The notes below the pieces were generated by a model. It was not told the DNA's origin. It ran no database searches and worked only from the letters and a program-made list of their open reading frames with translations. 64,000 bases of DNA from Phaeacidiphilus oryzae TH49 (lineage in GTDB: Bacteria; Actinomycetota; Actinomycetes; Streptomycetales; Streptomycetaceae), in the NCBI RefSeq assembly GCF_000744815.1, contig NZ_JQMQ01000005.1:3604055-3668054 (forward strand). Direction: 5' to 3'. Position numbers and translations under genes: made by a program. Shown in pieces: positions 3,767 to 40,461 of the stretch; positions within the stretch are counted from its first letter, which is position 1; the number at the start of each line of letters is the position of its first letter.

Positions 3767-3884
3767 ATCGAACGGCCGGGGCGCGGTGGCGTAACCGGGG
3801 TACATTGCCAGCGTTCGCGGCTGTGCGCCGAGGGGTGACGGGTTCGGGGCCGGCCGGAGTCGCGGTGGTCGCGGGAGGCGTGAC

Positions 3885-5877: not shown

Positions 5878-7533
5878 ATGGATGCGACGACGAGCGGGCC
5901 GCCCCCCGATCCGTCGGCGCCGTCGTCCGAGGTGCGGCCGCTCTCGGAGCGGCCCGGCGGGTGGGCGTCCGGGGCATGGGCGTCCGGGGCGAGGGCGTCC
6001 GGGGCGCCGGAGGGAGTGCGGCCGGAGGGGGCGGGCGCCGGTGCCGGGGACGCCACGGAGCCGTCGGCGATACCGCCCCGGCCCGTGCTGCCGCCGCGGA
6101 TGCCCGCCGTGCCCTCGGGCGACGCGGGCGACGCGGGCGACCTGGGTGACCTGGGCGACCCGTCAGTGGAGCCCGCGTCGGCCTGGTCTGCCTTCCCGCC
6201 GGCGCGGCCCGCCGTTTCGCCGGAGGCCGCCGTGGAGCCGCCGGCGGCGCCGCAGTCGCCGCCGCTGTCGATGCAAGTGCCGCAGGCGGAGCCGGTGCGG
6301 GTGTCGCCGGAGGACCTGGCGCTGGTCCGCCGTTCCCTCGGCGTCCTCTCCCGGCGGTCCGACCGGGCCACCGGTGAGTTCTACGCCCTCCTCTTCGTCC
6401 GCCACCCTGAGGTGCGGGAGCTCTTCCCGGCCGCCATGGACGTGCAGCGGGACCGCCTCTTCCGGGCGCTGCTGACCGGCAGCGGCGCGCTCGCCGGAAG
6501 CGCGGGCGAGCGCGCCAGGGTCCGCGCCTGGCTGCGCGGCCTCGGGCGGGACCACCGCAAGTACGGCGCCCTGGCCGAGCACTACGGCCCGGTCGGGGAG
6601 TGCCTGATCGAGGCCGTCCGCCGGTACTGCGGCATGCCCTGGGACGCGGCGCTGGACGGCGCCTGGCGCCGGGTCTACGGCGCGCTGGCCGCCGAGATGA
6701 CGGCCGGTGCGGCGGCGGACGCCCTGGTCGCCCCGGCCTGGTGGATGGGCGAGATCGTCTCCGTGGAGCGGCGCACCGGCAGCGTCGCGGTGCTCACCGT
6801 GCGGCCCGACCAGCCGTACCCGTTCCGCGCCGGGCAGTACGCCACGCTGGAGACCCCGTGGTGGCCGCGGGTGTGGCGGCACTACTCCTTCGCCTCCGCG
6901 CCCCGGCCGGACGGCACCCTGAGCTTCCACGTCAAGGCGGTGCCGGCGGGCTGGGTGAGCGGCGCCCTGGTGCACCGGGCCGGTCCCGGCGACCTGATCC
7001 GGCTCGGGCCCCCGCAGGGCGGGATGACGGTGGACCACGGCAGCGACCGGGGTCTGCTGTGTCTCGGCGGCGGCACCGGGATCGCGCCGATCAAGGCGAT
7101 CGTCGAGGAGGTCGCCCAGCACTCCGAGGCGGTCGCCGGCACCCGCCGGGTCGAGGTCTTCTACGGCGCCCGCCGGCCCGAGGAGCTCTATGTCCTGGAC
7201 GCGCTGGAGGAGTTGGCCCGGCGCCACCGCGGGGTGTCGGTGCGGCCGGTGATCGGCGATCCGGTCGGGGACGCCGTCGGCGGTCCGGTCGTCGACGCCG
7301 TCGCCGGTCCGGCCGGAAACCCGTTCGGAGACGCGGGGACAGAGCCGCCGCGCGGCCTGGGGCTGTCGGGCGCACTGCCGGACGTCGTACGGCGGTTCGG
7401 CCCCTGGGAGACCTTCGACGGGTACCTCAGCGGGCCCCCGGCGATGGTCCGCCGGGGGGTGACCGCGCTGCTCGGCAGCGGGATGCCGGCCGACCGGATC
7501 CGCCACGACCTGGCTGCTTCGGGTGCGGAGTGA
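5878..7533 (+). CDS. Flavohaemoglobin-like globin-reductase fusion with long disordered N-terminus
   Basis: 551 residues from ATG 5878 (GTG 5764 upstream is also in frame). Residues 1-140 are Pro/Ala/Gly/Ser-rich with WASGA-type and GDAGDLGD repeats. Residues about 141-275 form a globin domain starting VSPEDLALVRRSLG; the proximal His is in LGRDHRKYGALAEHY. Residues 287-551 form an FAD/NAD reductase with WRHYSFAS (RxYS FAD motif) and LCLGGGTGIAPIKAI (NAD pyrophosphate). Flavohaemoglobins dioxygenate NO to nitrate. A Gly/Pro/Val-rich insertion (about residues 460-485) splits the reductase domain. The low-complexity N-terminus is atypical: the usual length is about 400. Function is inferred from domains. 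Confidence 0.85.
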   Translation: MDATTSGPPPDPSAPSSEVRPLSERPGGWASGAWASGARASGAPEGVRPEGAGAGAGDATEPSAIPPRPVLPPRMPAVPSGDAGDAGDLGDLGDPSVEPASAWSAFPPARPAVSPEAAVEPPAAPQSPPLSMQVPQAEPVRVSPEDLALVRRSLGVLSRRSDRATGEFYALLFVRHPEVRELFPAAMDVQRDRLFRALLTGSGALAGSAGERARVRAWLRGLGRDHRKYGALAEHYGPVGECLIEAVRRYCGMPWDAALDGAWRRVYGALAAEMTAGAAADALVAPAWWMGEIVSVERRTGSVAVLTVRPDQPYPFRAGQYATLETPWWPRVWRHYSFASAPRPDGTLSFHVKAVPAGWVSGALVHRAGPGDLIRLGPPQGGMTVDHGSDRGLLCLGGGTGIAPIKAIVEEVAQHSEAVAGTRRVEVFYGARRPEELYVLDALEELARRHRGVSVRPVIGDPVGDAVGGPVVDAVAGPAGNPFGDAGTEPPRGLGLSGALPDVVRRFGPWETFDGYLSGPPAMVRRGVTALLGSGMPADRIRHDLAASGAE

Positions 7534-7778
7534 ACCGCGCTGGTCAGCCCGGTGATGACGGGTGCCGCCGTTCGGGTGACTCCTTCGCGGTCGGTCTCGT
7601 TCACTCTCTGGGAAATCGGCTGCGGGCGGCTCCGGCCCGGTGCCATCCGTCGCCGACCCGCCCGGCCCGGCGTACAACTGACGCCGCGTCGGGCGGCAGG
7701 AGTGCCCGCACTGCAGGAGGAGGGAAGGGCTCCTCCATCACGCGCATGCCATCCGCTCTGGGGACGACGGAGGACGCT

Positions 7779-8507
7779 ATGCACGAATGTTCGGCCCGGC
7801 CGGGTTCGGCCGGAGAGCACGCGCTACAGGACGAGCTCGGCACGACCGAGCGCGCCGACCGGTTCTACCGGGACCAGGTGCGCAGTTCCCTCAACGAGAG
7901 GATGCGGGAGTTCGTCGCCGAGCAGGAACTGGTCTTCATCGCCACCGCGGACGCCCAGGGCGAGTGCGACTGCTCGCTGCGCGCCGGGCCGCCCGGCTTC
8001 GTCCGGGTGCTCGGCGACCAGGTGCTGGCCTTCCCCGACTACCGGGGGAACGGGGTGATGGCCAGCATGGGCAACGCCCGGGAGAACGCCCACATCGGCC
8101 TGCTCTTCGTGGACTTCCAGAAGTCCCGGGTCGGCCTCCACGTCAACGGCTCCGTGCGGATCTTCTCCGACCTGGAGATGCGCGCCCGCTGGGACGGGCT
8201 GCCGGTCGAGTCGGTGCCCGGCCGGCGCGCCGTCTCCTGGCTGGAGATCGGCGTGGAGGAGGCGTACATCCACTGCTCCAAGCACATCCCACGGCTGGCC
8301 AAGGTGCCGACCGTGGCCCGGCACTGGGGCACGGACGACATCCGGCGCAAGGGCGGCGACTGGTTCGGCTCGGCCGCCCAGCGCAAGCGGCAGGAGCAGG
8401 AGGAGCAGGAGGCCCGGCAGCGGCGGGCCGCCGGGTGGCGGGGCGGCGGTGCCGCCGGACGCTCAGGCGCGCCCGGCGACGCGTCCGCCGAGGTCTCCCG
8501 CGAGTAG
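7779..8507 (+). CDS. Pyridoxamine 5'-phosphate oxidase-family FMN-binding protein (second copy)
   Basis: 242-residue paralogue of the protein at 3885-4544. The split-barrel core reads LVFIATADAQGECDCSLRAG, FPDYRGNGVMASMGNARENA, and GLHVNGSVRIF, with the subgroup tail EEAYIHCSKHIPRLAKV. After residue 205 it has a Gln/Glu/Arg-rich helix and a Gly/Ala tail with no domain resemblance. GGAGG six bases before ATG 7779 decides the start; ATG 7746 is in frame but lacks a site. The 245-base gap from the flavohaemoglobin gene probably holds its own promoter. The 3' end overlaps the convergent Nudix gene by 45 bases. Confidence 0.85.
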   Translation: MHECSARPGSAGEHALQDELGTTERADRFYRDQVRSSLNERMREFVAEQELVFIATADAQGECDCSLRAGPPGFVRVLGDQVLAFPDYRGNGVMASMGNARENAHIGLLFVDFQKSRVGLHVNGSVRIFSDLEMRARWDGLPVESVPGRRAVSWLEIGVEEAYIHCSKHIPRLAKVPTVARHWGTDDIRRKGGDWFGSAAQRKRQEQEEQEARQRRAAGWRGGGAAGRSGAPGDASAEVSRE

Positions 8508-9032
8508 CGTGCGGATGCCCTCGACGTTCGCCGCCAGATAGCGGCGGAGGGCGGCCGGGACCACGTTGACCGAGGTGACGCCCTCCAGGGTGAAGGGGAG
8601 CCGGACGATCTCGTACTCGCCGTTCGGCTCCTCCACCTCCGGCCCGTGCCGCAGCGCCGGGTCCATGGACTCCAGTCGGCAGACGAAGAAGTGCTGGACC
8701 TTGACCCCCTCCGGGATCCCCGGCCGGGGGTCCCGGACGGTGTCCACGAAGGCCGGCACCACGTCGGTGACCTTCCCGCCCAGCTCCTCGGCGATCTCCC
8801 GGTGGAGGGCGTCCACCACCGTGGCGTCGGTGGGCTCCACCCCGCCGCCGGGGGTGATCCAGTACGGCGGGAGCCCTGGCTTGGTGCGCTTGATGAAGAC
8901 GATCTCGGCCGGGACGGTCTCGGCCGGGGCCCGCGGGCCGTCCAGCCCCACGGCCTGGACCGCCTCGGCGGGGACGTCCAGCAGGATCGCCCGCGCGGTG
9001 CGCTTCACCACCGGACGGTGTGGCTGCCCCAT
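8463..9032 (-). CDS. Nudix hydrolase
   Basis: 190-residue Nudix-fold pyrophosphohydrolase acting on a nucleoside diphosphate linked to another moiety; substrate unknown. The Nudix box is GGGVEPTDATVVDALHREIA followed by EELGG: the catalytic REIAEELGG helix is intact, but the usual Glu after the first Gly-x5 is replaced (Asp/Ala depending on alignment), a variant seen in some family members. N-terminal VVKRTARAILLD is the first strand. It is encoded on the strand opposite to the second PNPOx-like gene and overlaps it by 45 bases at the 3' ends. ATG 9032 lies just behind GGAGGTACGG, a good ribosome-binding site. Confidence 0.9.
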   Translation of the reverse strand: MGQPHRPVVKRTARAILLDVPAEAVQAVGLDGPRAPAETVPAEIVFIKRTKPGLPPYWITPGGGVEPTDATVVDALHREIAEELGGKVTDVVPAFVDTVRDPRPGIPEGVKVQHFFVCRLESMDPALRHGPEVEEPNGEYEIVRLPFTLEGVTSVNVVPAALRRYLAANVEGIRTLLAGDLGGRVAGRA

Positions 9033-9136
9033 CCGTACCTCCTGCGTGGTTCTGTGCTGGGGAGTTTGCCGCGGCAGCCGGGGGGCGAAACCCGAGCAGG
9101 TGTGCGCCTCGCCGAGGGGTCCCGCTCCTCCCCCGC

Positions 9137-10096
9137 TCACCAGTCGGCCGCGGCGGAGAGCAGCCGGCCGTGGGTGCGGGAGATCGCCGGCTGCACCAGC
9201 GATCCGGCCCGCACCACCAGGAAGTAGGTGCGGAGCGGGGAGAGCGGCGGTTCGATCAGCGGGCGGAGGCGTCCGGCGGTGATCGCCTCCTGGCACATCC
9301 GGCGCGGCAGCACGGCCATGCCGGCGCCGGAGAGCACCGCGGAGAGCACTCCGGTGAGATCGGGGGCCACCACAGAGGCCGGGCGGCCCGGGCGGCGGTC
9401 GAAGACGGTGTGCCAGTAGCGGGTGGCGAAGGGCAGCCGCTCGTCGCAGTCGATCAGCGGGATCCGGTCGAGGGCGGTGAGGGTCGGGTCGGCGGGGGCG
9501 GGGGCGGGATCGGCGGAGTCGGGAGGACGGGGATCGGCAGGCTCGCCGTCCGCCGAGGCCGCCCCCGCGCCGGAGGGCAGCAGGCGGACCCACGGGCCGG
9601 CCGCGACCAGGACGTACTCCTCGTCCAGCAGCGGGGTGGCGCGGAAGATCTGGGCGCGCGGCCGGCGGGTGGAGATCACCAGGTCGTAGGCGGCGGAGGC
9701 GAGTCCGGCCAGCGCCGTGTCGCCGTGCTGGTTGCTGATCCGCAGGCCCAGGCCCTGGGCGATCAACGGGGCCAGCGCGGGCAGCAGATGGCTGGCGGTG
9801 AACTCGGGCGGCGCGGCCAGATGCAGGGTGCGGTGCGGGTCCTCGTCCGGGCTGCTCTCGGTGATCTCGGCCAGCGCGTCGAGATGCGGGGCGACCCGCC
9901 CGGCCAGCTCCACGGCGACGCTGGTGGACTCCACCCCGCGGGGCAGTCGCTGGAACAGCGGGCGGCCCAACTGCCGCTCCAGAGTGCGGATCTGGCCGGT
10001 GACCGCGGGTTGGGAGACGCCCAGCAGCTGGGCGGCGCGGGTGAACGAGCCCGCTCGGTGGACGGTGAGGAAGGTGCGCAGCAGCGCGAGGTCCAA
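9137..10096 (-). CDS. LysR-family transcriptional regulator
   Basis: About 319 residues from TTG 10096, preceded by GGGAGGGGAG, or 354 from ATG 10201; I prefer TTG because family members start at LDLALLRTFLTV. The winged helix-turn-helix is FTRAAQLLGVSQPAVTGQI RTLE. The effector domain begins about HRTLHLAAPPEFTASHLLPA and ends PAISRTHGRLLSAAADW. A Pro/Ala/Asp-rich insertion (near residues 180-205) sits in the effector domain. LysR proteins usually control a divergent gene, but here the neighbour upstream (the holin-like gene) is on the same strand, so its target is not evident. Regulon and inducer are unknown. Confidence 0.88.
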   Translation of the reverse strand: MDLALLRTFLTVHRAGSFTRAAQLLGVSQPAVTGQIRTLERQLGRPLFQRLPRGVESTSVAVELAGRVAPHLDALAEITESSPDEDPHRTLHLAAPPEFTASHLLPALAPLIAQGLGLRISNQHGDTALAGLASAAYDLVISTRRPRAQIFRATPLLDEEYVLVAAGPWVRLLPSGAGAASADGEPADPRPPDSADPAPAPADPTLTALDRIPLIDCDERLPFATRYWHTVFDRRPGRPASVVAPDLTGVLSAVLSGAGMAVLPRRMCQEAITAGRLRPLIEPPLSPLRTYFLVVRAGSLVQPAISRTHGRLLSAAADW

Positions 10097-10406
10097 CCCG
10101 CTCGCTCCCCTCCCGTCCGGCGGCTCCCCGTGCGCCGTGTGGCTGTGTGCTGTTCTGGGTCCGATTGTTCCGGAAGGGGCCGGCCGCCGCAGCCCAAACA
10201 TAAATATGTCGATAGGTGTACCGCGTCTATGTGATTGGACACTGACGCAGAGTCAACTACCTTTATCTGCGTCGTTCTTCGCGTGGAGAGCCGGTCCCGG
10301 GGCCGGTGCGGGGCACGACGACCGGCCGGGCGGGCGGAGCCACGAGGGGGGAGGCTTCGCCCGCCACGGCGTATCCGCGGCCGATGAGTCGCCGCTCGGT
10401 CGCCGC
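10097..10406. other. AT-rich intergenic segment with an inverted repeat upstream of the LysR gene
   Basis: 310 bases without a gene. The part 10200-10275 is clearly less GC-rich than its surroundings. GACGCAGA (10244-10251) and TCTGCGTC (10266-10273) are perfect inverted arms with a 14-base spacer that contains, on the minus strand, TTGACT resembling a -35 element. It could be the LysR promoter/operator or a terminator for the holin-like gene. Nothing else was recognised. Confidence 0.4.
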
Positions 10407-10790
10407 TCAGTCCTTGTCGCCGTCCGGCAGGACCACGTGGAGGATCCACGCCACCACGGTGACGATGAGCGAGCCGAGGAGGGCGGGCAGGAAGCCGTCC
10501 ACGTGGAAGTCCAGGTTGAGGCGACCGGAGACCCACGAGGTCAGCCAGAACATCAGGGCGTTGACCACGAAGGTGAACAGGCCGATGGTCAGGACGAAGA
10601 GCGGGAACGAGAAGAACTTGACCACCGGCTTCACCAGCCAGTTGATCACCCCGAAGATCAGGGCGACCACCACCAGGGTCCAGGCCTTCTGGGCGGTCGA
10701 GTCCCCGGTGAGGGTTATGCCGTGGACGATCCACGCGGCGACGGCGATCGCGGCCGCGTTGATCAGGGTCTTGACGACGAAGTGAACCAT
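10407..10790 (-). CDS. Small membrane protein of the phage holin 4-2 (superfamily IV) family
   Basis: 127 residues with four predicted membrane helices: residues about 5-24, 36-54, 58-82 and 101-121. NWLVKPVVKFFSFPLFVLTI is the conserved centre of the family (NxxxKPxxxxxxxP). Despite the family name these are common chromosomal actinobacterial membrane proteins, and there are no phage genes nearby, so lytic function should not be assumed. ATG 10790 matches the usual length. A GACCAT sequence seven bases before the ATG could be the -10 element of a leaderless transcript. Role unknown. Confidence 0.85.
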   Translation of the reverse strand: MVHFVVKTLINAAAIAVAAWIVHGITLTGDSTAQKAWTLVVVALIFGVINWLVKPVVKFFSFPLFVLTIGLFTFVVNALMFWLTSWVSGRLNLDFHVDGFLPALLGSLIVTVVAWILHVVLPDGDKD

Positions 10791-10917
10791 GGCGCAGATG
10801 GTCGCAGCCCCGGGCCGTACGGCCAAAGCCGGCGGCCCGGGCCGGGGCCATTGTCACCGGACCGGTACCCCCGTGTTGAATGCTCGGTACAGGAGCAGTC
10901 AAGAGGGGACGGACGAC

Positions 10918-11235
10918 ATGCAGGTGTTCCGGCTGGACGACCTGGACGCGGAGCGGGCCGCCAACGAGGGCGCGTATCTGCGCTTCCTGCGGGAGCGGAA
11001 CATGTCCGCGGGGCTGTACGCGCTGGACGCGGGCGCGATCGACCCGCAGAAGCCGCACGACCAGGACGAGATCTACTTCGTGGTGAGCGGCCGGGCCTCG
11101 GTCACCGTCGGGGAGGAGAGCACCGCGGTCGCCCGCGGCAGCGTGGTCTACGTGCCGGCCGGGGTGCCGCACAGGTTCCACCACATCAGCGAGGACCTGC
11201 GGGTCCTGGTCGTCTTCTCCCCTCCGGAGGCCTGA
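10918..11235 (+). CDS. Cupin-domain protein
   Basis: 105-residue single cupin. The first cupin motif PHDQDEIYFVVSGRASVTVG supplies the likely metal-binding His and Glu, and YVPAGVPHRFHHI supplies the second-motif His. Such small cupins bind Fe, Mn or Zn and may be dioxygenases, isomerases or ligand-binding proteins; nothing tells which. AGAGGGG lies about nine bases before ATG 10918. The stop is four bases before the TenA start, so both are probably translated from one message. This neighbour suggests, but does not prove, a role linked to thiamine or pyrimidine-precursor salvage. Confidence 0.85.
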   Translation: MQVFRLDDLDAERAANEGAYLRFLRERNMSAGLYALDAGAIDPQKPHDQDEIYFVVSGRASVTVGEESTAVARGSVVYVPAGVPHRFHHISEDLRVLVVFSPPEA

Positions 11236-11239
11236 GCCC

Positions 11240-11956
11240 GTGGCGCACGAGCCGAAGCCCTGGACGGAGGAGCTCTGGGAGTCCGCGGACGGGCTGTACC
11301 GGGCGGTCCTGGACCATCCGTTCCTCCGCGGGCTGACCGACGGCAGTCTGCCCCGCGAGGCCTTCCTCCACTTCGTCCACCAGGACGCCCACTATCTGCG
11401 GGAGTACGCGAGGGCGCTCGCGGTCTGCGCGGCGAAGGCGCCGACCGAGGACGACGTGCGGGCGCTGGCGGACGACGCGGTGGGCGCGATCGCGGCCGAG
11501 CAGACGATGCACGCCGAGTTCGTCGCCGCGCTGGCCGGGGCCGGGACCGGGGTCGAGTCCGGATCAGGGTCCGGGTCCGGGTCCGGCGGCCCAGCCGATC
11601 CCGGGGTGCTGCCCAGCACCCAGGCGTACACCTCCTATCTCCTCGCCACGGTCCACGGCGGGTCCTTCGCGGAGGGGCTCGCGGCGGTGCTCCCGTGCTA
11701 CTGGATCTACGCCAGGGTCGGCGAGCGGCTGCTCGCCGCCTCCTCCCCCGATCCCCTCTACGCCCGCTGGATCGCCGCCTACGGCGACGAGGCCTTCCAG
11801 TCCGTGGTGCGCAGGGTGCTGGCGCTCGCGGACCGGGTCGGCGAGGAGCTCTCCGCCGCGGAGCGCGCTCGCGGGGTCCGGCACTTCCGCGCCACCGCGC
11901 GGTACGAGTGGATGTTCTGGGACGCCGCCTGGCGGGGCGAGACCTGGCCCGTCTAA
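11240..11956 (+). CDS. TenA-family protein (thiaminase II / aminopyrimidine aminohydrolase-like)
   Basis: 238-residue all-helical TenA protein. Members salvage the pyrimidine moiety of degraded thiamine (aminopyrimidine hydrolysis). Conserved features: FVHQDAHYLREYARALAVCA, and the catalytic-Cys segment VLPCYWIYARVGERLL with Cys153, plus YEWMFWDAAWRGE at the C-terminus. A Gly/Ser-rich insertion of alternating residues (about 106-118) lengthens a loop and is unlike the compact family. GTG 11240 is preceded by GGAGG at spacing nine inside the end of the cupin gene. Its location just upstream of the thiC locus supports a thiamine role. Confidence 0.87.
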   Translation: MAHEPKPWTEELWESADGLYRAVLDHPFLRGLTDGSLPREAFLHFVHQDAHYLREYARALAVCAAKAPTEDDVRALADDAVGAIAAEQTMHAEFVAALAGAGTGVESGSGSGSGSGGPADPGVLPSTQAYTSYLLATVHGGSFAEGLAAVLPCYWIYARVGERLLAASSPDPLYARWIAAYGDEAFQSVVRRVLALADRVGEELSAAERARGVRHFRATARYEWMFWDAAWRGETWPV

Positions 11957-12065
11957 GGGTAGGAATTCGGGGATCTCTCAGGGGTCGCGGCGGCCCGCTC
12001 GGGCCCCCGGCCGCCATACGATCGAAGAGTCAGAACAGACCGCGCTTACGCGAAGGACGGCAGTG

Positions 12066-12278
12066 ATGAAGGAACTGTGGCACGGACTCCCCTGGTGGGT
12101 TCGGCGGGTCGTGGTCCCGGTCATTCTGGTGATCGTCGCCTGGAGCCTGCTGTCCACCGTGTTCGGCGCGATCTTCGCCGTGCTGGGCTGGGCCCTCGGC
12201 CTCGTCATCAAGTTGCTGGTGATCGTGGCGCTCGGCGCCGCGGTGGTGGTCCTGGTCAAGAAGGCCTCCCGGATGTAG
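12066..12278 (+). CDS. Small DUF5326-like membrane protein
   Basis: 70 residues, beginning MKELWHGLPWWVRRVVVPV, with two adjoining hydrophobic helices (about 14-36 and 38-64) and a basic C-terminus (KKASRM). It resembles the short DUF5326 proteins that Streptomyces carry next to thiC; function unknown. ATG 12066 (with GTG 12063 adjacent) follows AAGGA. A possible -10, TACGAT, is at 12017-12022. The gene ends in a strong 19-bp hairpin, so it is not expected to read into the TPP riboswitch. Confidence 0.8.
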   Translation: MKELWHGLPWWVRRVVVPVILVIVAWSLLSTVFGAIFAVLGWALGLVIKLLVIVALGAAVVVLVKKASRM

Positions 12279-12326
12279 CCGCGGCGGGGCCGATCGCGGC
12301 CGATCGCGGCGGATCGCCCGCCTGCC

Positions 12327-29193: not shown

Positions 29194-31242
29194 ATGTCCG
29201 ACCCGCAGGAACGCTCCACCCCCGACCCCGAAGCCGGCGGCGTCCCCGACCCCGACCCCGAAGCCGAGCCCGAAGCCGATGACGGCGGCGCCGAGCGGGT
29301 CGACGCGCCTCCGCCGGCTCATCCCTTCGGGGAGTGGGCGGCGGGGCGCGCCGCCGAGCCGTCGATCGGGGGAGCCGCGCTCCACTCCGCCGCCGGGGAG
29401 ATCGTGGCGCGCCTGCGCGGTGTGGACTCGCCCGAGGCGACCGCGCGGATGCGCGAGCTGCTGGCGGCCGTCGTCGCCATCGGCTCCGGGCTGGACCTCC
29501 ATGCGACCCTGCAGCGGATCGCCGCCGCCGCCACCGCCGTGACCGGCGCCCGCTACGCCGCCGTCGGCGTGGTCGACGCCTCCGGTGAGAGCCTCTCCGA
29601 CTTCGTCTACGTCGGCATCGACGAGGACTCCGCGGCCGAGATCGGCCACCTCCCCCAGGGCAAGGGGCTCCTCGGCGCGCTGATCGACCACCCGGAGCCG
29701 CTCCGCCTGGAGGACCTCGCCCTCGACCGCCGCTCCTACGGCTTCCCGCCACACCACCCGCCGATGCGCTCCTTCCTCGGCGTGCCGATCCGGGTCCGGG
29801 AGGCCGTCTTCGGCAACCTCTACCTCACCGAGAAGCCCGGCGGCTTCGACGAGAGCGACGAGCAGGTGGTGCTCGCCCTCGCCGCCGCCGCCGGAACGGC
29901 GATCGAGAACTCCCGCCTGTACGAGGGCGCCCGCCGCCGCGAGCGCTGGGTGGTCGGCACCTCCGCCGTCGGCAACGCCCTCCTAGCCTCGGAGAGCGCC
30001 GCCGACACCCGCGCCGCCTTCTCCGTCGTCGCCGAGCAGCTCCGCGAGCTCGCCGACGGCGCCGTCGGCATGATCGCCGCCCCGGACGGCGACGGCGGCC
30101 TCCAGGTGCTCAGCGCCTCCGGCACCGGCGCCGACCTCCTCACCGGCGCCCAGGCGGTGGCCTCGGAGTTCCCCGCGGTCAGCCGGCTGCTCCGGGGCGA
30201 GCCGGTCTTCCTCTCCGACATGTCCCGCAGCCCGGACATCGCCTGGCCGCTGGCCCGCCGCTTCGGGCCCGGGATGGCCCTGCCGATGACCAGCGCGGGC
30301 CGTCTCCTCGGCGCGGTCGCCGTCTGGCGCTCCCCCGGCGAGGCCGAGTTCAGCGCGGACGAGCGCCGCCTCGCCACCGCCTTCGCCGCGCAGGCGGCGC
30401 TCGCCCTTCGGATCGCCGAGGGCCAGGCCGACCAGCAGCGCCTCGCCGTCTACCAGGACCGCGACCGGATCGCCCGCGACCTCCACGACCTGGTCATCCA
30501 GCGGCTGTTCGCCACCGGGATGATGCTGGAGGGCGCCCAGCGCAAGACCGAGGTGCCGGAGGTGAAGCAGCGGATCAGCAAGGCGGTGGACGAGCTGGAC
30601 GCCACCATCAAGGAGGTCCGCACCACCATCTACGCCCTCCAGCACGACGACACCCCGGACGGCGCCGACGACAACCTCCGCACCCGGGTCCTGCGGGAGA
30701 TCGGCCAGTCCGCGGCGGTGCTGGGCTTCAAGCCCTCGGTGGCCTTCGTGGGACCGGTGGAGACCGTGGTGGGCGAGCAGACCGGCCGCCAACTGGTGGC
30801 CGCGCTGCGCGAGATGCTCTCCAACGCGGCCCGGCACGCCCGGGCCCGTACCGTCTCGGTGGACGTGGACGCCGGGATCCACATCGACGAGCACGGCTAT
30901 CCGACCTTCGTCCTGGACGAGCCGGGGGAGCAGCGGGAAGCGGCGGAGCCCACCGGGGGCGGGCGGCGCGAGGGCGGGCGGCGCGAGGGAGCGGAAGGGG
31001 AGCCCGCCGCCGGCGAGGCCGACCGCGGTCGCGCGCTGGAGGAGGCTCTGCGCCGGGCCGGCGCGGGCCGACCCGCGGTGATGCTGAGCGTCAGCGACGA
31101 CGGGGTCGGCATCCCGGAGGGCGGCCGCCGCAGCGGGCTGCGCAACCTCGCCGACCGCGCCCGCGGCCTCGGCGGCGCGGCCTGGCACGAGCCGGGCCCC
31201 GGCGGCCGGGGGACCACCGTGCGGTGGACCGCCCTGCTCTGA
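29194..31242 (+). CDS. Orphan GAF-domain sensor histidine kinase (DevS/DosS-like architecture)
   Basis: 682 residues, no transmembrane helix. Residues 1-85 are disordered, acidic and Pro-rich. GAF domain 1 spans about 90-235, GAF domain 2 about 255-400, then a HisKA_3 dimerisation domain with DRIARDLHDLVIQRLFATGM (phospho-acceptor His431) and HATPase with EMLSNAARHARA and SVSDDGVGIP. An insertion rich in Arg/Glu/Gly (about 575-625) divides the ATPase domain. The layout matches DevS/DosS gas/redox sensors, but haem-ligand residues cannot be confirmed by eye. No response regulator gene is adjacent. Directly after cydCD, so it may sense O2 or redox state. Confidence 0.88.
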   Translation: MSDPQERSTPDPEAGGVPDPDPEAEPEADDGGAERVDAPPPAHPFGEWAAGRAAEPSIGGAALHSAAGEIVARLRGVDSPEATARMRELLAAVVAIGSGLDLHATLQRIAAAATAVTGARYAAVGVVDASGESLSDFVYVGIDEDSAAEIGHLPQGKGLLGALIDHPEPLRLEDLALDRRSYGFPPHHPPMRSFLGVPIRVREAVFGNLYLTEKPGGFDESDEQVVLALAAAAGTAIENSRLYEGARRRERWVVGTSAVGNALLASESAADTRAAFSVVAEQLRELADGAVGMIAAPDGDGGLQVLSASGTGADLLTGAQAVASEFPAVSRLLRGEPVFLSDMSRSPDIAWPLARRFGPGMALPMTSAGRLLGAVAVWRSPGEAEFSADERRLATAFAAQAALALRIAEGQADQQRLAVYQDRDRIARDLHDLVIQRLFATGMMLEGAQRKTEVPEVKQRISKAVDELDATIKEVRTTIYALQHDDTPDGADDNLRTRVLREIGQSAAVLGFKPSVAFVGPVETVVGEQTGRQLVAALREMLSNAARHARARTVSVDVDAGIHIDEHGYPTFVLDEPGEQREAAEPTGGGRREGGRREGAEGEPAAGEADRGRALEEALRRAGAGRPAVMLSVSDDGVGIPEGGRRSGLRNLADRARGLGGAAWHEPGPGGRGTTVRWTALL

Positions 31243-34029: not shown

Positions 34030-34163
34030 GCATCCGCCGTGAGTGACGGATTGGTAAACAAGATACGTGTAAGGGGAAACCGAACCCCATAATCGTTCCG
34101 CGCCCTGTGGAACGACTGTACGAGGCGCACTCAATCACCCACCTGTCTCCAGGAAGTGACGCC

Positions 34164-34862
34164 TTGCCGAGAATCCGTTCCGGTGTCCTGCTCAGCGCCG
34201 CCGTCCTGATCGGCGTCCTCGGCGGTGCGGGCACCGGGTACGCCGTCCAGCAGCACCGCGCCCCGACCCCGCTGCCGCCGCTCGCCGCCACACAGCCCAA
34301 GTACCCCGCCGTACGCAGCACTTCGGACGGGCGGCTGCCGGCCGCGCAGGACGACATGGTGCGCACGGACGGCGATCTCACCGCGCTGCTGATCCACCTC
34401 CCCGCCGGCGCCCACGAGGTCAGCTACGAGCCGGGGATGAACGGTTGGAAGACCCTGAGCGAGTACGCCCAGAACTTCGACAAGCCTGCGGATGCCTTCC
34501 AGACCCAGCTGGACGACGGCATCCGCCGGATCGCGGAGCGTTCCTGGAAGCAGGGCGGCACCAGCTACGAGGTCCGGCTCGTGCAGTTCCAGCACGATCA
34601 CGAGGGGTCCGTGAAGGAGGACCTCAACGAGCAGAAGGACTACGCGCCGGATGACCTCGGAGGCGATGTGGAGGAGGCGGTCCCGCCGGGTTCCGCCGAC
34701 GAAGCGGCCTATGCCGGCAGGCACATGAAGGACGGTGCCTACAACGCCGAGGCGATGGGCCGGCACGGCGACATCCTGGTGCTGGTCTTCGCCTTCGGCG
34801 AGCACCGGATCTCTGCCCACGCCGTGGCATCCGTACTGGAACAGCAGGTGGAGCGGCTGTGA
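34164..34862 (+). CDS. Membrane-anchored protein of unknown function, triad member 1
   Basis: 232 residues from TTG 34164, preceded by AGGA at nine bases; GTG 34107 is in frame too. One N-terminal helix (about residues 8-28, GVLLSAAVLIGVLGGAGTGY) anchors an extracytoplasmic domain. The segment LDDGIRRIAERSWKQGGTSY-EVRLVQF resembles LAEDGVRHIAARRWTTPDGT in triad member 3, so the genes are paralogues. Asp/Glu-rich, no Cys, no enzyme motif. Possible -10 CATAAT at 34088-34093. Stop overlaps the start of member 2 by 4 bases (GTGA). Not a family I can name; likely the region of S. coelicolor hypothetical genes SCO3953-3955. Confidence 0.78.
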   Translation: MPRIRSGVLLSAAVLIGVLGGAGTGYAVQQHRAPTPLPPLAATQPKYPAVRSTSDGRLPAAQDDMVRTDGDLTALLIHLPAGAHEVSYEPGMNGWKTLSEYAQNFDKPADAFQTQLDDGIRRIAERSWKQGGTSYEVRLVQFQHDHEGSVKEDLNEQKDYAPDDLGGDVEEAVPPGSADEAAYAGRHMKDGAYNAEAMGRHGDILVLVFAFGEHRISAHAVASVLEQQVERL

Positions 34863-35680
34863 GCGACATCTCCCCGAGCACCCCTCCGGCGGCGGAGGAG
34901 TCCGCCCCGGTCGACACCGCCGACACTCCCGCCGACTCCGCGGCATCTCCGCGGGCACGCGTCCGATGGGTCCTGCCCACCACCCTCCTCGTCATCGCGG
35001 CGCTGGTCGCCGCGGCCGTCGCCTGGGTGGCACTGCCGGAACGGCAGCACCAGGACGCGGCGGCCCCGGCCGTGCGGACGCCGGGCGCGGGCTCCACCCC
35101 CTCCTCGGGAATCCGCTGGGACGGCAGCCGGTTCGGCCCCCTCACCCGTCTGCTGGCCCCCATGCCGGAGGGCTATACGACCGGTCCCGACATCCCCGGA
35201 CTGGGCTCGGACACCCAGATCTCGGGAACGCAGTACGAGCAGCATGAACTGAGCCTGTTCCCCGGCCTCAGCGTGAGCGAGCGCCGGGAGATGGCGGAGC
35301 TGATGGACTCCCGGCATGTCACCGCCGTCGCCGTCCGCAGCTACACCGGATCCGGGGTGATGATCTCGATCGAGCTCACCCAGGAGAGCCGCGGCGCCGC
35401 GGCGGTCGGGACGAAACTGATGGGCCTGCTCGAGAAGGACCTGACGGGAGGGAAGCCGGGGCCCAAGGTGCCCGGCTACCCGAAGGCGGTCTGCACGAGA
35501 ACGGCGAAGACCGGCGACAAGAAGTTCGACAGCGTGGGCACCCTGGACTGCACGGCCGCGGTCGGCGGAGTGCTCGTCCAGATGGAGGAGGTGGGGCCCG
35601 CGCCGCTGGCGACCACCCAGGCGATCAGCCTCCTCAAGCAGCAGCTGGACCGCCTGGCGGTCCCGGACCAGGAGTCGTGA
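34859..35680 (+). CDS. Membrane-anchored protein of unknown function, triad member 2
   Basis: 273 residues, GTG start in a GTGA overlap with member 1. N-terminal 35 residues are Pro/Ala/Ser-rich and cytoplasmic; a helix at about 37-60 (VLPTTLLVIAALVAAAVAWV) anchors the rest outside. The extracytoplasmic domain has two Cys (CTRTAKTGDKKFDSVGTLDC), perhaps a disulphide, and AELMDSRHVTAVAVRSYTG, which aligns with the LDDGIRRIAERSW motif of member 1. Four bases separate it from member 3. Translational coupling of the triad suggests a complex. Confidence 0.78.
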   Translation: MSDISPSTPPAAEESAPVDTADTPADSAASPRARVRWVLPTTLLVIAALVAAAVAWVALPERQHQDAAAPAVRTPGAGSTPSSGIRWDGSRFGPLTRLLAPMPEGYTTGPDIPGLGSDTQISGTQYEQHELSLFPGLSVSERREMAELMDSRHVTAVAVRSYTGSGVMISIELTQESRGAAAVGTKLMGLLEKDLTGGKPGPKVPGYPKAVCTRTAKTGDKKFDSVGTLDCTAAVGGVLVQMEEVGPAPLATTQAISLLKQQLDRLAVPDQES

Positions 35681-35684
35681 GCGC

Positions 35685-36674
35685 GTGACCGAATCCATTC
35701 CGGAAGCCCCGGACCGGAAGCCCGGCGGCGAGGCCGAAGGCGACACGGCCGTGGCCACGGTGCCCGGCACGCTCCCCTCCGACGACGGTGCCGCGGTCGG
35801 CGAAGGGACGGCCTCGGTCGCCGGCGAGCCGGCCTCGAACGGCGAGCCGGCCTCGAACGGCGAGCCGGCCTCGAACGGCGAGCCCGCCTCGGACGGCGAG
35901 CCCGTCGGCGAGGCCGGGGCCGCCGCGGCCCCCGACGCGCGCCCTCGGCGCCGGCTCGGAGGCTGGCGGGTCTGGCGGTGGCCGGTCGCCGCCGTCCTCT
36001 GCCTGGGCCTCGGCACCGGGACGGCCCTGGCGCTCACCGCGCCCCCGCGCACCCGGCTGCCCGGGCTGCACACCGCCGCCGACGGACGGTGGGCCTTCCC
36101 CGCGCTCACCCTGCCCACCCTGCCCGCCGGCGCGCCGGCCCCGAACAGCGGCAACCGCTACGAACACGCGGCCGACCTGCGGCAGTTGGTGATTCCGGCG
36201 CCTACCGAGGCCGGGGAGGCCGGTTCCGGTGGCGGCTGGTATCCGGTGGCCTCCTTCGTCCAGCGCTTCACCACCGGCTCCAATCGGCAGAAGCTGGCCA
36301 CCATGCTGGCGGAGGACGGCGTCCGGCATATCGCGGCCCGGCGCTGGACCACCCCCGACGGCACCCGCACCGAGGTCTACCTGCTGGGCTTCCGTTCCGA
36401 GGACTCGGGCAGCCAGGCCGACGCGGACCTGGAAGGGGTGTCCTTCTCCCCGCCCGGGATCACGGACCTGCAGCTGGACGCCCCCGACCCGCAGTTCACA
36501 GTCCCGGGCGTGACCACGTACTCCCGCCCCGCCGGGGACGGAAAGCCCGCCTCCCTCGTGGGCAAGCTCGAGAACGGCGACATCGAGGTCGTGGTGACGA
36601 TGAGCAACCCCCACTCGATCCCCAGGATCCCGATGGAGCAGACCCTGACCCTGGAGAACGAGCTGCTGCAGTGA
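35685..36674 (+). CDS. Membrane-anchored protein of unknown function, triad member 3
   Basis: 329 residues from GTG 35685. Residues 1-95 are a cytoplasmic Gly/Glu/Ala/Pro-rich region including tandem GEPASN repeats; a helix at about 98-120 (WPVAAVLCLGLGTGTALALT) anchors the outside domain. The core LAEDGVRHIAARRWTTPDGT is paralogous to member 1. No Cys pair, no active-site motif. Followed by an inverted repeat and the ABC exporter operon. Confidence 0.78.
   Translation: MTESIPEAPDRKPGGEAEGDTAVATVPGTLPSDDGAAVGEGTASVAGEPASNGEPASNGEPASNGEPASDGEPVGEAGAAAAPDARPRRRLGGWRVWRWPVAAVLCLGLGTGTALALTAPPRTRLPGLHTAADGRWAFPALTLPTLPAGAPAPNSGNRYEHAADLRQLVIPAPTEAGEAGSGGGWYPVASFVQRFTTGSNRQKLATMLAEDGVRHIAARRWTTPDGTRTEVYLLGFRSEDSGSQADADLEGVSFSPPGITDLQLDAPDPQFTVPGVTTYSRPAGDGKPASLVGKLENGDIEVVVTMSNPHSIPRIPMEQTLTLENELLQ
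35823..35894 (+). repeat. Tandem 18-bp repeats inside triad member 3
   Basis: GGCGAGCCGGCCTCGAAC occurs three times exactly (35823-35840, 35841-35858, 35859-35876), and a fourth unit differs slightly (35877-35894). The frame is kept, encoding GEPASN repeats in the cytoplasmic tail. Likely length-polymorphic by slippage. Confidence 0.9.
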
Positions 36675-36821: not shown

Positions 36822-37865
36822 GTGTCTGATACCCAAGTCCTCAGCGACGCCTCGGCCGGGACAGCCGGGGACGAGCCCGTCATCACAACGGACGGGCTCA
36901 CCAAGAGGTTCCCCAGAGTCACCGCGCTGGACAGCCTGACCCTGAGCATCGGGCGGGGCGTCGTCGGCCTGGTCGGGGCCAACGGCGCCGGCAAGTCCAC
37001 GATGATCAAGATCCTCCTCGGGCTCACCCCGGCCAGCGCGGGCGGCGCCCGGGTCCTGGGCCTCGACGTGGCCTCCCAAGGGGAGGCCATCCGCGAGCGC
37101 GTCGGCTATATGCCCGAGCACGACTGCCTGCCGCCCGACGTCTCGGCCACCGAGTTCGTGGTGCACATGGCGCGGATGTCCGGTCTCCCGGCCTCCGCCG
37201 CCCGTGAGCGCACCGCCGACACCCTGCGCCACGTCGGCCTGTACGAGGAGCGCTACCGCCCGATCGGCGGTTACTCGACCGGCATGAAGCAGCGGGTGAA
37301 GCTGGCCCAGGCCCTGGTCCACGACCCCAAGCTGGTGCTGCTCGACGAGCCGACCAACGGCCTGGACCCGGTCGGCCGGGACGACATGCTGGACCTGGTC
37401 CGCCGCATCCACCGGGACTTCGGCATCTCCGTGCTGGTCACCTCGCACCTCCTCGGCGAGCTCGAGCGCACCTGCGACCACGTGGTGGTGATCGACGGCG
37501 GCAAGCTCCTCCGCTCCTCCTCCACGGCCGACTTCACCCAGACCACCCGGCTCCTCGCGGTCGAGGTCACCGACCCCGCCGACGAGCACGCCGACCCCGC
37601 GTACGCCGAGAACGCGGTCCGGGACCGGCTGCGCGAGGCCGGGCTCACGGTCACCGCCGACGGCGGCGCCCGGGTGCTGCTGGTCGAGATGACCCCCGAG
37701 CTGGGCGAGGACGTCTACGACCGGGTCCGCGACACCGTCGCCGACCTCGGCCTCGGCTTGGTGCGGATGGAGCAGCGCAGGCACCGCATCGCCGAGGTGT
37801 TCACCGACCGGCCCGCCGCCGAACAGAGCCGGCCGCAGCAGGAGGAGGGCGCCGCCCATGTCTGA
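36822..37865 (+). CDS. ABC transporter ATP-binding protein
   Basis: 347 residues. Walker A GANGAGKST, signature YSTGMKQRVKLAQALV (instead of LSGGQ), Walker B LVLLDEPTNGLDP, and switch His in LVTSHLLGELE. The C-terminus (residues about 230-347) is a regulatory extension. GTG 36822 with -10 TACGTT (36810-36815) six bases earlier marks a leaderless start. Its last 8 bases overlap the permease gene. First of a four-gene unit (ATPase-permease-ATPase-permease). Exporter, substrate unknown; NatA/bacitracin-resistance type. Confidence 0.9.
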   Translation: MSDTQVLSDASAGTAGDEPVITTDGLTKRFPRVTALDSLTLSIGRGVVGLVGANGAGKSTMIKILLGLTPASAGGARVLGLDVASQGEAIRERVGYMPEHDCLPPDVSATEFVVHMARMSGLPASAARERTADTLRHVGLYEERYRPIGGYSTGMKQRVKLAQALVHDPKLVLLDEPTNGLDPVGRDDMLDLVRRIHRDFGISVLVTSHLLGELERTCDHVVVIDGGKLLRSSSTADFTQTTRLLAVEVTDPADEHADPAYAENAVRDRLREAGLTVTADGGARVLLVEMTPELGEDVYDRVRDTVADLGLGLVRMEQRRHRIAEVFTDRPAAEQSRPQQEEGAAHV

Positions 37866-38775
37866 TCTCGGCATCCCCGTCCCGGCCTCAGCGGCCGCCC
37901 CGGACGTCATCCACGACATCGGCTACCGCCACTACGAGGGCCGCCGGCTGGGCCGCGGCTACGCGATGCGCTCGCTCTACGTGCAGACGCTGCGCGGCTC
38001 CTTCGGCCTCGGGCGGTCGGTCAAGTCCAAGATCCTGCCGATGACCCTCCTCGGCGTGATGTGCGTCCCCGCGCTGATCGCGGTCGCCGTCGCGGTGTAC
38101 GTGAAGCTGAACCGGCTGCCCATCGAGTACCCGCACTACCTGGTCATCATGGAGTTCGTGACCGCGGTCTTCGTCGCCTCGCAGGCGCCGGTCGCGGTCT
38201 CCAGGGACCTGCGGTTCCAGACCATGCCGCTGTACTTCTCCCGGCCGCTGACCTCCCGCGACTACGTCCGGGCCAAGTTCGCCGCCCTGGCCAGCGCGGT
38301 CTTCATCCTCACCGCGCTGCCGATGCTGGTCTTCTACCTGGGCGCGGTCTTCTCCAAGCTGGGCTTCGTCTACAACACCGAGCACTTCGCCTACGGCCTG
38401 TTCGCGGCGGTCTGCTACTCCCTCCTCTACTCGGCGATCGCGCTGCTGATCGCCTCGGCCACGCCCCGGCGCGGCTTCGGGGTGGCCGGGATCATCGCGG
38501 TGCTGCTGATCTCCTCGGCGATCTCCGGGATCGTCTACGGGGTGCTCAACTTCCGCGGCGGCTTCGACCCGAGCTCCACCTCCTCCGCGCACTGGGCCGG
38601 CGTGATCGCCCCCGCGCAGCTGGTGGACTCGCTCACCACCTGGCTCTTCCACCTCCGGGTGCAGGGGATGGCGGGCGTGCCGGGCGCGGTCGGCGGGATC
38701 GTGTTCGCCGCCGAGCTGGTACTGATCGTCGTCGCCTGCTACGCGCTGCTGGTCCGGCGCTACCGCCGCCTCTGA
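37858..38775 (+). CDS. ABC transporter permease
   Basis: 305 residues, about six membrane helices after a 50-residue N-terminal cytoplasmic part (YRHYEGRRLGRGYAMRSLYV). FQTMPLYFSRPLTSRDYVRA is the conserved cytoplasmic loop of this permease class, where the domain couples to the ATPase. Start ATG 37858 with AGGAGG upstream, inside the end of the ATPase gene. Pairs with 36822-37865. Confidence 0.88.
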   Translation: MSDLGIPVPASAAAPDVIHDIGYRHYEGRRLGRGYAMRSLYVQTLRGSFGLGRSVKSKILPMTLLGVMCVPALIAVAVAVYVKLNRLPIEYPHYLVIMEFVTAVFVASQAPVAVSRDLRFQTMPLYFSRPLTSRDYVRAKFAALASAVFILTALPMLVFYLGAVFSKLGFVYNTEHFAYGLFAAVCYSLLYSAIALLIASATPRRGFGVAGIIAVLLISSAISGIVYGVLNFRGGFDPSSTSSAHWAGVIAPAQLVDSLTTWLFHLRVQGMAGVPGAVGGIVFAAELVLIVVACYALLVRRYRRL

Positions 38776-38802
38776 AGCTTCGTCGGGAGACGAGAACACA
38801 CC

Positions 38803-39720
38803 ATGGCAACCATCACCATCGACAAGGCCTCCCGCTGGTTCGGCAACGTGGTCGCGGTCAACGACGTCACGATGACGATCGGTCCGGGGGTGACCGGACT
38901 GCTCGGCCCGAACGGCGCCGGCAAGTCCACGCTGATCCACATGATGTCCGGCTTCCTGCCGCCCTCGGCCGGCACCGTCACCCTGGACGGCGCCGCGGTC
39001 TGGCGCAACCAGCGCGCGTACGCGCAGATCGGGCTGGTCCCCGAGCGCGAGGCGATGTACGACTTCCTGACCGGCTGGCAGTTCGTGCTGGCCAACGCCG
39101 AGCTCCACAAGCTCCCCGACCCGGAGGAGGCCGCCCGCCGGGCGCTCGCCACGGTCGAGATGGAGTACGCGATGGAGCGGAAGGTCTCCACCTACTCCAA
39201 GGGCATGAAGCAGCGGGTGAAGATGGCCTCGGCGCTGGTCCACGACCCGGCCGTGCTGCTCCTCGACGAGCCCTTCAACGGGATGGACCCGCGGCAGCGG
39301 ATGCATCTCATGGGGCTGCTGCGGCAGTTCGCCGCGGACGGCCGGACGGTCCTCTTCTCCTCGCACATCCTGGAGGAGGTCGAACAGCTGGCCCGGCACA
39401 TCGAGGTGATCGTGGCGGGGCGGCACGCCGCCTCCGGCGACTTCCGCAAGATCCGCCGGCTGATGACCGACCGGCCGCACCGCTACCTGGTCCGCTCCAG
39501 CGACGACCGGCGGCTGGCCGCCGCGCTGATCGCGGACGGCTCCACGGCCGCGATCGAGTTCGACCGCAAGGAGAGCGCCCTGCGCATCCAGGCGATCGAC
39601 TTCTTCCGCTTCACCGAGCTGCTGCCGCGGGTCGCCAAGGAGGCGGACGTACGGCTGCTCACCGTCTCCCCGGCCGACGAGTCCCTGGAGAGCGTCTTCT
39701 CCTACCTCGTAGCCTCCTGA
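38803..39720 (+). CDS. ABC transporter ATP-binding protein (second)
   Basis: 305 residues; Walker A GPNGAGKSTL, signature YSKGMKQRVKMASALV, Walker B VLLLDEPFNGMDP, switch LFSSHILEEVEQL. Similar to the first ATPase of the unit but with its own C-terminal region. ATG 38803, in the same operon; 27-base gap from the first permease. Pairs with the next permease. Confidence 0.9.
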   Translation: MATITIDKASRWFGNVVAVNDVTMTIGPGVTGLLGPNGAGKSTLIHMMSGFLPPSAGTVTLDGAAVWRNQRAYAQIGLVPEREAMYDFLTGWQFVLANAELHKLPDPEEAARRALATVEMEYAMERKVSTYSKGMKQRVKMASALVHDPAVLLLDEPFNGMDPRQRMHLMGLLRQFAADGRTVLFSSHILEEVEQLARHIEVIVAGRHAASGDFRKIRRLMTDRPHRYLVRSSDDRRLAAALIADGSTAAIEFDRKESALRIQAIDFFRFTELLPRVAKEADVRLLTVSPADESLESVFSYLVAS

Positions 39721-39744
39721 TCTTCATCCGAAGGGTCCTCAGAA

Positions 39745-40461
39745 GTGAACTACACCGTAGCCGCGCTCACGCTGCGCGGACTGCTCGGGCGGCGCCGGGG
39801 GCTGCTCCTGCTCGCCGTGCCGCTGCTGCTGATCGTCCTGGCGGTCGTCGTGCGGCTGGGCGTCGGCGTCGACCACGATGCGACCGTCAACCTGCTGAGC
39901 AAGCTGGCGCTGGGCACGATGGTGCCGCTGCTCGGGCTGATCGCCGGGACGGGCGCGATCGGGCCGGAGATCGACGACGGCTCGATCATCTACCTGCTGG
40001 CCAAGCCGCAGCCGCGATACAAGATCATCCTGACCAAGCTGGCGGTGGCGATCGGCTGCTCGGCGGTCTTCGCCGCCGTCCCGACCTTCCTGGCCGGCGA
40101 GATCCTCTACGGCAACCTCGAACACATCGCGCTGGGGTACGGGATCGGCGCGCTGGTCGCCGGGGTCGCGTACAGCGCGCTCTTCCTCCTCTTCGGGGTG
40201 ATCACCCGGCACGCGGTGGTCGTCGGGCTGCTGTACGCGCTGCTGTGGGAGAGCGTGGTCGGCAACTTCGTGCCGGGGGCGCGGACGTTGAGCATCCAGC
40301 AGTGGGGCCAGACGGTGGCCCGGCAGGTGGCCGACTCCGGCTCGCTGACCGCTAACGTCCACCTCCCGGTGGCCATCCCGCTGCTGATCGTCGTCGCCGT
40401 CGGCGCGACGGCGCTGGCCTCCGTCCGCCTGGCGGGTCTGACCCTCGCGGGCGAGGAGTAG
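39745..40461 (+). CDS. ABC transporter permease (second)
   Basis: 238 residues with about six membrane helices, starting VNYTVAALTLRGLLGRRRGL; AGTGAIGPEIDDGSIIYLLA-KPQPRYKIIL is the cytoplasmic coupling region of this permease class. GTG 39745. Forms the second half of the two ATPase-permease pairs. Whether the pairs form one or two exporters is not evident. Followed by an interspersed repeat element. Confidence 0.88.
   Translation: MNYTVAALTLRGLLGRRRGLLLLAVPLLLIVLAVVVRLGVGVDHDATVNLLSKLALGTMVPLLGLIAGTGAIGPEIDDGSIIYLLAKPQPRYKIILTKLAVAIGCSAVFAAVPTFLAGEILYGNLEHIALGYGIGALVAGVAYSALFLLFGVITRHAVVVGLLYALLWESVVGNFVPGARTLSIQQWGQTVARQVADSGSLTANVHLPVAIPLLIVVAVGATALASVRLAGLTLAGEE

Follow-up and report, generated by a model that had tools for sequence, protein, structure and literature searches.

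A coupled triad of paralogous single-pass membrane proteins with predicted PknH-sensor-like outside domains, a candidate envelope complex of streptomycetes and their relatives

Much of the cell envelope of streptomycetes, which rank among the major producers of antibiotics, lacks annotation. A stretch of 64,000 nucleotides from Phaeacidiphilus oryzae TH49 (contig NZ_JQMQ01000005.1, positions 3,604,055 to 3,668,054; hereafter the window), part of a high-GC genome of 7.8 Mb in 6 contigs, carries three consecutive genes, here called M1, M2 and M3, that each encode a membrane-anchored protein with an outside domain. An earlier note, made from the letters of the window, had described them as coupled paralogues and had suggested an envelope complex, maybe linked to the ATP-binding cassette (ABC) operon downstream. 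On balance, we favour the reading that M1, M2 and M3 form one membrane-anchored hetero-oligomer, with outside domains of the PknH-sensor/LpqN class, that holds or senses a component of the envelope. That the three proteins form a complex is likely, and we hold this with fair confidence; the physical complex, its stoichiometry and ligand binding by the domains are what we infer from the evidence below.

Our comparison covered 121 loci, namely 40 loci of the own family, 80 named loci (79 of them titled Streptomyces) and the window; coupling, residue and topology counts refer to 116 complete triads. Exactly M1-M2-M3 stands in 95 of the 121 loci, and the rest have a fourth paralogue (M0, described below) or additional copies, run off the end of a contig, are decayed or, in the case of L152, have no called M2 and an M3 in two pieces. 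In the window, the three open reading frames (ORFs) with their GTGA overlap and subsequent 4-base gap are present as the earlier note had claimed (Table 1). M1 and M2 overlap by 4 bases in 115 of 116 triads, the exception being L091, and M2 and M3 do so in 112 (exceptions L037, L064, L118 and the window).

Joint presence was counted in the own family (f1, taken to be Streptomycetaceae), where a single-protein search with M1 covered 101 genomes from 17 genera. M1 was found in 69 of them (E ≤ 0.001), and M1 occurs together with a strong M3 (profile search, E ≤ 2.7e-38) in 67 of the 71 genomes having either; the presence of M2 is judged from the loci read. The occurrence of the genes apart from each other, without co-conservation, which the note had named as an outcome that would speak against a triad, is thus mostly not seen, with G024 and G027 (see below) as exceptions. 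M3 without M1 is found in G033, where M2 and M3 open a contig and M1 would lie beyond it, and in G054, where the middle of M3 is gone and M0 is intact. Decayed cassettes are visible in L049 (6001-7266; M1 frame open, front of M2 and end of M3 left), L178 (5994-6602; M3 without its middle) and L179 (5462-5707; a remnant of M3 only), and cassette loss seems to proceed by decay in place. The gene caller set the M1 start of L049 late, the frame being open across the whole match, and missed M3 in L186, where a weak match is present at that place. Extra copies occur now and then (L040, L055, L135 and L155); in L040 the complete M0-M1-M2-M3 cassette is present twice, one copy after the other (5144-12301, on the locus's reverse strand).

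M1, M2 and M3 are paralogous, judging from sequence likeness beyond chance. Profiles of the three proteins (A1-A3) were built from about 40 relatives each, with 119 members together, and profile-profile comparison gave probabilities of 99.6% for M1-M3, 99.5% for M1-M2 and 98.1% for M2-M3. In many family genomes, the M1 query also picked up M3, as a weaker match 1-2 kb downstream. Since profile scores of this kind can be raised by membrane helices, profiles of the outside domains only were also run; among the 16 loci listed, cross-matches between M1 and M3 went down to E 3e-19, those between M1 and M2 lay at about 2e-4 to 2e-8 with a few M2 proteins missed, and direct cross-matches between M2 and M3 were few and weak. 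The paralogy proposed earlier is therefore confirmed at the level of the outside domains. Minus-strand matches at the locus ends (23 of the 80 named loci) were gone with the outside-domain-only profiles, and were dropped as compositional. In a tree of 133 outside domains (quick search), M0, M1, M2 and M3 form one clade each, with support of 98, 88, 100 and 99 in the Shimodaira-Hasegawa-like approximate likelihood ratio test (SH-aLRT), so that the duplications which gave rise to them are probably older than the spread of the family. Within the genome of origin, no second M1-like gene was found below E 0.1 at the sensitivity of this search, and M3 and M1 were the sole matches of the M3 profile.

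Each of the three proteins has one N-terminal hydrophobic stretch, and a second, outside stretch (mean Kyte-Doolittle hydropathy > 1.6) is present in 0, 3 and 0 of 116 M1, M2 and M3 proteins, in agreement with the one helix and one outside domain per protein that had been read from the window. On average, 2.7, 4.3 and 3.9 Arg/Lys residues precede the helix, compared with 1.3, 1.4 and 1.7 after it (M1, M2 and M3), which fits an outside location of the C-terminal domains. In M1, G36, G40 and G44 are each 100% conserved (116 proteins); relatives of M2 have A49-x3-G53 (84 and 94%), positions at which the window M2 has L and A. Together with the spaced residues of the M3 helix, these may be regarded as helix-packing signatures in the general sense. 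Named residues of the M3 juxtamembrane pattern RT-x-x-PGL-x-T-x-x-DGR are conserved at 96-100%. Exactly two outside cysteines occur in 115 of 116 M2 proteins, and none in 99 of 116 M1 and 101 of 116 M3 proteins; since the two M2 cysteines are at invariant places, a disulfide between Cys212 and Cys231 is likely. Of the window proteins, M1 is free of cysteine, M2 contains just the pair in its domain, and M3 has one inside the membrane helix, with no lipobox. The motif that had been noticed in M1 and M3, and its related stretch in M2, were recovered as well, and lie on a beta strand in the M1 and M2 models. Cytoplasmic tails in the window comprise 3-22 residues in M1, 40 in M2 and about 100 in M3, but the lengthening from first to third that had been described is not a rule, being found in only 60 of 116 triads. 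The tails of M2 and M3 are rich in proline and alanine, and tail lengths vary strongly.

AlphaFold2 models of M1 (predicted local distance difference test, pLDDT, 83.5; predicted template modelling score, pTM, 0.68) and M2 (pLDDT 80.1, pTM 0.69) resemble each other in the order of their helices and strands. The top structure match of either model is the extracellular domain of PknH from Mycobacterium tuberculosis (PDB 4esq), which aligns with M2 at Z 12.4 and a root-mean-square deviation (rmsd) of 3.5 over 155 residues (for M1, see Table 1). A Bacteroides protein (3hlz) matches at Z 11.8 for M2 and 8.7 for M1, while LpqN, MTC28, PsbP, Mog1, Tsi3 and RseB score at Z of about 6.5-10, where likeness by chance is frequent. 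The outside domains of M1 and M2 are thus predicted to have a common fold of the PknH-sensor/LpqN class, and the unrelated folds that the note had named as a refuting outcome did not appear in the comparison of M1 with M2, the two proteins modelled.

The statement that no known family can be named is borne out at the sequence level, with the PknH sensor domain as the nearest relative at the level of fold. No Pfam family fits the 119 members, the matches being weak, scattered and confined to 3 members or fewer per alignment, and no membership was found in NCBIfam, where two families matched, each in one of 40 M3 proteins. Pfam matches to CwsA, LptE and PARP (1-3 members of an alignment; best E 3.5e-4, for PARP) were judged to reflect chance or low complexity. 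When the A1-A3 profiles were searched against PDB sequences, no convincing match emerged: the best E was 2 for A1 and 1.3 for A3, and for A2 a match to a Mip-type isomerase (E 0.048, 61 residues) was judged chance. PknH_C (PF14032) was not found in the genome of origin, an uninformative result given that no control genome had a match either.

The triad changes fast. Mean identity over 90 loci is 57, 53 and 59% for M1, M2 and M3, compared with 88-91% for four neighbours and 65% for an LmeA-like gene, which fits exposed proteins. A mirror-tree analysis of these 90 loci, all of the DsrE/heme-barrel setting and with distances corrected for the neighbour genes, gave partial correlations of 0.56 for M1-M2, 0.50 for M2-M3 and 0.40 for M1-M3, compared with 0.10-0.36 for pairs of an M gene and a neighbour. 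These values lend modest support to joint evolution of M1-M3.

Coupled translation, joint presence and absence, and the helix-packing motifs are the reasons for proposing a hetero-oligomer, and we count in its favour that the same cassette is found at several addresses. M1, M2 and M3 would be three sub-types of one single-pass protein, assembled helix to helix, and the complex would expose three outside domains that differ from one another but are all of the PknH-sensor/LpqN fold class. It would probably hold or sense an envelope component, for example a lipid, a glycolipid or a wall precursor. M0, which is present in some relatives and can look like a lipoprotein, would probably be a fourth subunit. 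Of the possible envelope complex with an ABC link raised in the earlier note, the complex is what gene order, the 4-base overlaps and joint presence and absence point to; the ABC link is the part that is not supported as a general rule.

Several points weigh against this proposal. Four-base overlaps are common in actinomycete operons, and the window itself breaks the one between M2 and M3. Two genomes have M1 without a strong M3, namely G024, where the M1 frame is open but M2 is reduced to its front and M3 to its end, and G027, which lacks M2 and M3, while M0 stands alone in two genomes. Partial correlations among the neighbours themselves range from 0.15 to 0.44, two pairs (0.42 and 0.44) exceeding M1-M3, and the M genes evolve faster than most control genes. 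The fold alignment of the M1 and M2 models to the PknH sensor has only 10-13% identity, 0 of the 119 A1-A3 members match PknH_C at E 0.1, and M3 is assigned by its homology to M1, as the structure models cover M1 and M2 only. Immunity proteins and PsbP/Mog1 belong to the fold class as well, so that function is not fixed by fold. Finally, TtfA, a mycobacterial envelope factor with a single helix, is described as having no obvious lipid pocket (PMC7458404).

The ABC operon (36822-40461) comprises two ATPase and two permease genes, for which no listed NCBIfam model reached its cut-off. Its first permease (threshold E up to 1e-20) is present in 92 of the 101 family genomes, and serS lies close to the operon in loci where both are in view. 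Among the 65 genomes with both M1 and the permease, the triad is directly upstream of the ABC genes in 23 (genera g1, g3, g11 and part of g14), at least 224 kb away on the same contig in 11, and on a different contig in 31, two of which (G002 and G069) are probably assembly breaks. Of the 101 genomes, 27 have the permease but no M1 (G033, with M2 and M3, is one of them) and 4 have M1 but no permease; in the loci read from g6, g9, g12 and g16, M3 is followed by a gene of another kind. What is seen next to the triad in the window is thus a local arrangement rather than a constant partnership, and the suggested link with the downstream operon fails as a general rule. The same separation argues against the triad being made up of accessory subunits of this exporter, or of a pump of the resistance-nodulation-division (RND) or MmpL type, that pass or take substrate outside the membrane. 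Such a role would suit the adjacency in 23 genomes and has precedents in LpqN and TtfA, proposed to act in this way with MmpL3 (PMC7458404), but we consider it unlikely.

A similarly improbable alternative is that M1, M2 and M3 are stand-alone signal receptors, each working through its own proline-rich tail on a partner in the cytoplasm, for example a Ser/Thr kinase or an anti-sigma factor, with no fixed trimer. The nearest predicted fold is the sensor domain of a receptor kinase, the Pro/Ala-rich tails of M2 and M3 are long, and signalling genes can be read by eye upstream of the triad in the window (a GAF/histidine-kinase-like gene, 29194-31242) and in L071 (a two-component-like pair). However, profile scans detected no kinase domain in M1, M2 or M3, no signalling gene keeps a constant place across the addresses, and the strong variation of tail length does not suit the idea; the near-universal gene coupling suggests joint assembly. 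That the triad consists of immunity or antagonism genes neutralising envelope-delivered toxins is very unlikely, for although the models match Tsi3 (Z 8.3-9.7) and TplEi (Z 6.8-8.3), which are of the same fold class, and both the low identity relative to four of five neighbours and the extra copies would be in keeping with it, there are four clean clades, a second family keeps this gene order, the cassette is usually single-copy, and none of the three window proteins matched the PADLOC anti-phage defence models.

Table 1. Features of the M1-M2-M3 triad, with positions counted from the first letter of the window.
Feature	Position	Strand	Remarks
M1	34107..34862	+	single-pass membrane protein, PknH_C-like outside domain (fold from model); start GTG 34107 or, more likely, TTG 34164
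M1 membrane helix, glycine zipper G36-x3-G40-x3-G44	34179..34253	+	helix 25-49 in model
M1 juxtamembrane motif HRAPTPLPPLA	34254..34286	+	R, L, P, L conserved at 96-100%
M1 outside domain	34353..34859	+	nearest solved structure PknH sensor domain: VIA-align Z 13.3, rmsd 3.2, 151 residues to 4esq
Shared motif DGIRRIAERSW in M1	34515..34547	+	on beta strand of model (M1 139-149)
GTGA overlap, M1 stop/M2 start	34859..34862	+	4-base overlap, frequency in relatives given in text
M2	34859..35680	+	single-pass membrane protein, PknH_C-like outside domain (from model), two invariant cysteines
M2 membrane helix	34979..35029	+	model pLDDT low in this part
M2 strand VTAVAVRSY, counterpart of shared motif	35324..35350	+	strand 156-164 in model
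M2 Cys212 to Cys231, predicted disulfide	35492..35551	+	both residues 100% conserved
4-base gap M2-M3	35681..35684	+	elsewhere mostly 4-base overlap (see text)
M3	35685..36674	+	single-pass membrane protein, outside domain homologous to M1
Four tandem GEPAS(N/D) units, M3 cytoplasmic tail	35823..35894	+	sequence reading
M3 membrane helix with G110-x3-A114	35976..36035	+	G110 95%, A114 97% conserved
M3 juxtamembrane block RTRLPGLHTAADGRWAFPALTLPTLP	36048..36125	+	among most conserved M3 stretches
Shared motif DGVRHIAARRW in M3	36315..36347	+	sequence reading

The TTG start of M1 is preferred because a Shine-Dalgarno-like AGGAAG lies 7 bases upstream of it and because relatives have a conserved N-terminal RRRGRT stretch. 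In loci L086-L165, the 100-250 bases before M1 contain a conserved block, between the divergent DsrE gene and M1, with a region resembling TTGGAAGTACC at its end; of 67 loci, 28 fit a strict pattern and 37 a looser one. M1 may often be TTG-started and have a conserved promoter; despite the conserved block, no promoter class could be named for these 67 loci.

M0 precedes M1 in 18 of the 121 loci (19 copies) and is absent from the window. In the sister family f77, probably Catenulisporaceae, it stands before M1 in all 8 loci read. In genus g8, M0 lies without the triad between the DsrE and heme-binding barrel genes (L171, 810-1442; L172, 3893-4516, minus strand), and the L171 protein has, by eye, a lipobox-like LAGC. 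DUF6599 was rejected as an assignment for M0, one protein having matched with 19.3 of 27 bits, below the cut-off. Genus g3 has lipoprotein-like proteins with two tandem outside domains (L166, 3889-5175; L167, 3587-4879; L168, 3260-4543), and in L174 (genus g14; 3530-4558 and 1879-2232, minus strand) such a two-domain gene is interrupted by another ORF; all four are away from the cassette, with a lipobox-like SGC or GGC near the start when read by eye. L084 (991-2187), from another family and a genome 62% complete, combines a zinc ribbon, a membrane helix and a domain matching the M1 profile at E 6.7e-9. Given solitary M0, the two-domain proteins and L084, the domain forms a wider family in these bacteria. 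A survey of the phylum (396 genomes; scoring stopped at 6 candidates per genome and may have passed over remote members) gave 10 matches, of which 8 are from the own family and the others are L084 and G312, the latter weak and in the helix region only. M1 was found in 13 of 14 sampled f77 genomes, and was absent from the one genome sampled from a third family of the order.

The cassette has at least four chromosomal settings. As in the window, it can lie upstream of the ABC genes, followed by major facilitator superfamily (MFS), haloacid dehalogenase (HAD), serS and pheA genes. The Streptomyces setting is between DsrE and a THAP4-type heme-binding barrel, with a Fur-family regulator, a GCV_T-domain gene and a D-Tyr-tRNA deacylase. 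The cassette is beside gatCAB in genus g2 and in every f77 locus read (8 of 8, these with M0), a setting that may be the oldest since it is common to two families. One g10 genome has it beside aldehyde dehydrogenase genes, and L065 (genus g14) presents a further neighbourhood.

To our knowledge, the triad corresponds to no family with a name and to no system described so far. A literature search by locus tag and fold relatives gave no described match, a description under other names being possible, and no Streptomyces coelicolor locus tags for the triad were identified via the literature on SCO4166 to SCO4178. The fold is known; as far as could be seen, the coupled three- to four-part cassette is a new arrangement.

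Compared with known systems, the triad is closest to the PknH sensor (4esq, PF14032), which like M1 and M2 is the outside domain of a single-pass membrane protein and has the same predicted fold. Unlike PknH, the triad has no kinase domain and no Pfam PknH_C match, and consists of three coupled genes instead of one receptor; its anchors are N-terminal, whereas that of PknH is central. The PknH sensor domain has two disulfides, which are not matched in the triad, M2 having one at most and M1 and M3 being mostly cysteine-free outside. Within the same broad fold class, the models also match an Rv0999 orthologue (Z 9.6-10.1), Apa (about 9), LpqN (7.9 for M1 and 8.6 for M2) and MTC28 (7.2-7.9), the LpqN and MTC28 scores being near the level that common folds reach. 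LpqN-like proteins are lipoproteins or secreted, while the triad has N-terminal helix anchors and, in the window proteins, no lipobox. The soluble domain of TiME (7cu8, 7cu9) is the second-best fold match for M1 (Z 11.2; M2 Z 10.8; 8-12% identity), and no paper on it was found in the literature searched. TtfA, the fold of which is reportedly termed atypical in the title of its structure paper, is a single gene as opposed to a triad of coupled genes; among the structure matches listed for M1 and M2, none is described as TtfA. Like the triad members, it has one N-terminal helix and an outside domain (PMC7458404).

The same source reports that LpqN can interact with MmpL3 and MmpL11, a lipid mimic having been used in the LpqN study (PMC7458404), and a review describes a large cleft in the PknH extracellular domain, with possible binding of wall lipids and a ligand that is not known (PMC4601284). 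It is this literature that leads us to think that the complex holds or senses an envelope molecule. The triad is a conserved, unnamed cassette, and its predicted fold is that of an envelope sensor and of other envelope proteins in mycobacteria. It is thereby a concrete candidate complex and, beyond the mycobacteria, a candidate system for binding envelope ligands. More tentatively, M0-M3 could constitute an undescribed envelope complex of the streptomycete order, with three or four co-translated paralogous sensor-fold subunits that each have their own binding site and that move between addresses as a unit, as the counterpart of the mycobacterial lipid-handling machinery built on LpqN/PknH domains. 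If this were true, a counterpart of LpqN/PknH-like machinery would exist in streptomycetes, which make no mycolic-acid envelope.

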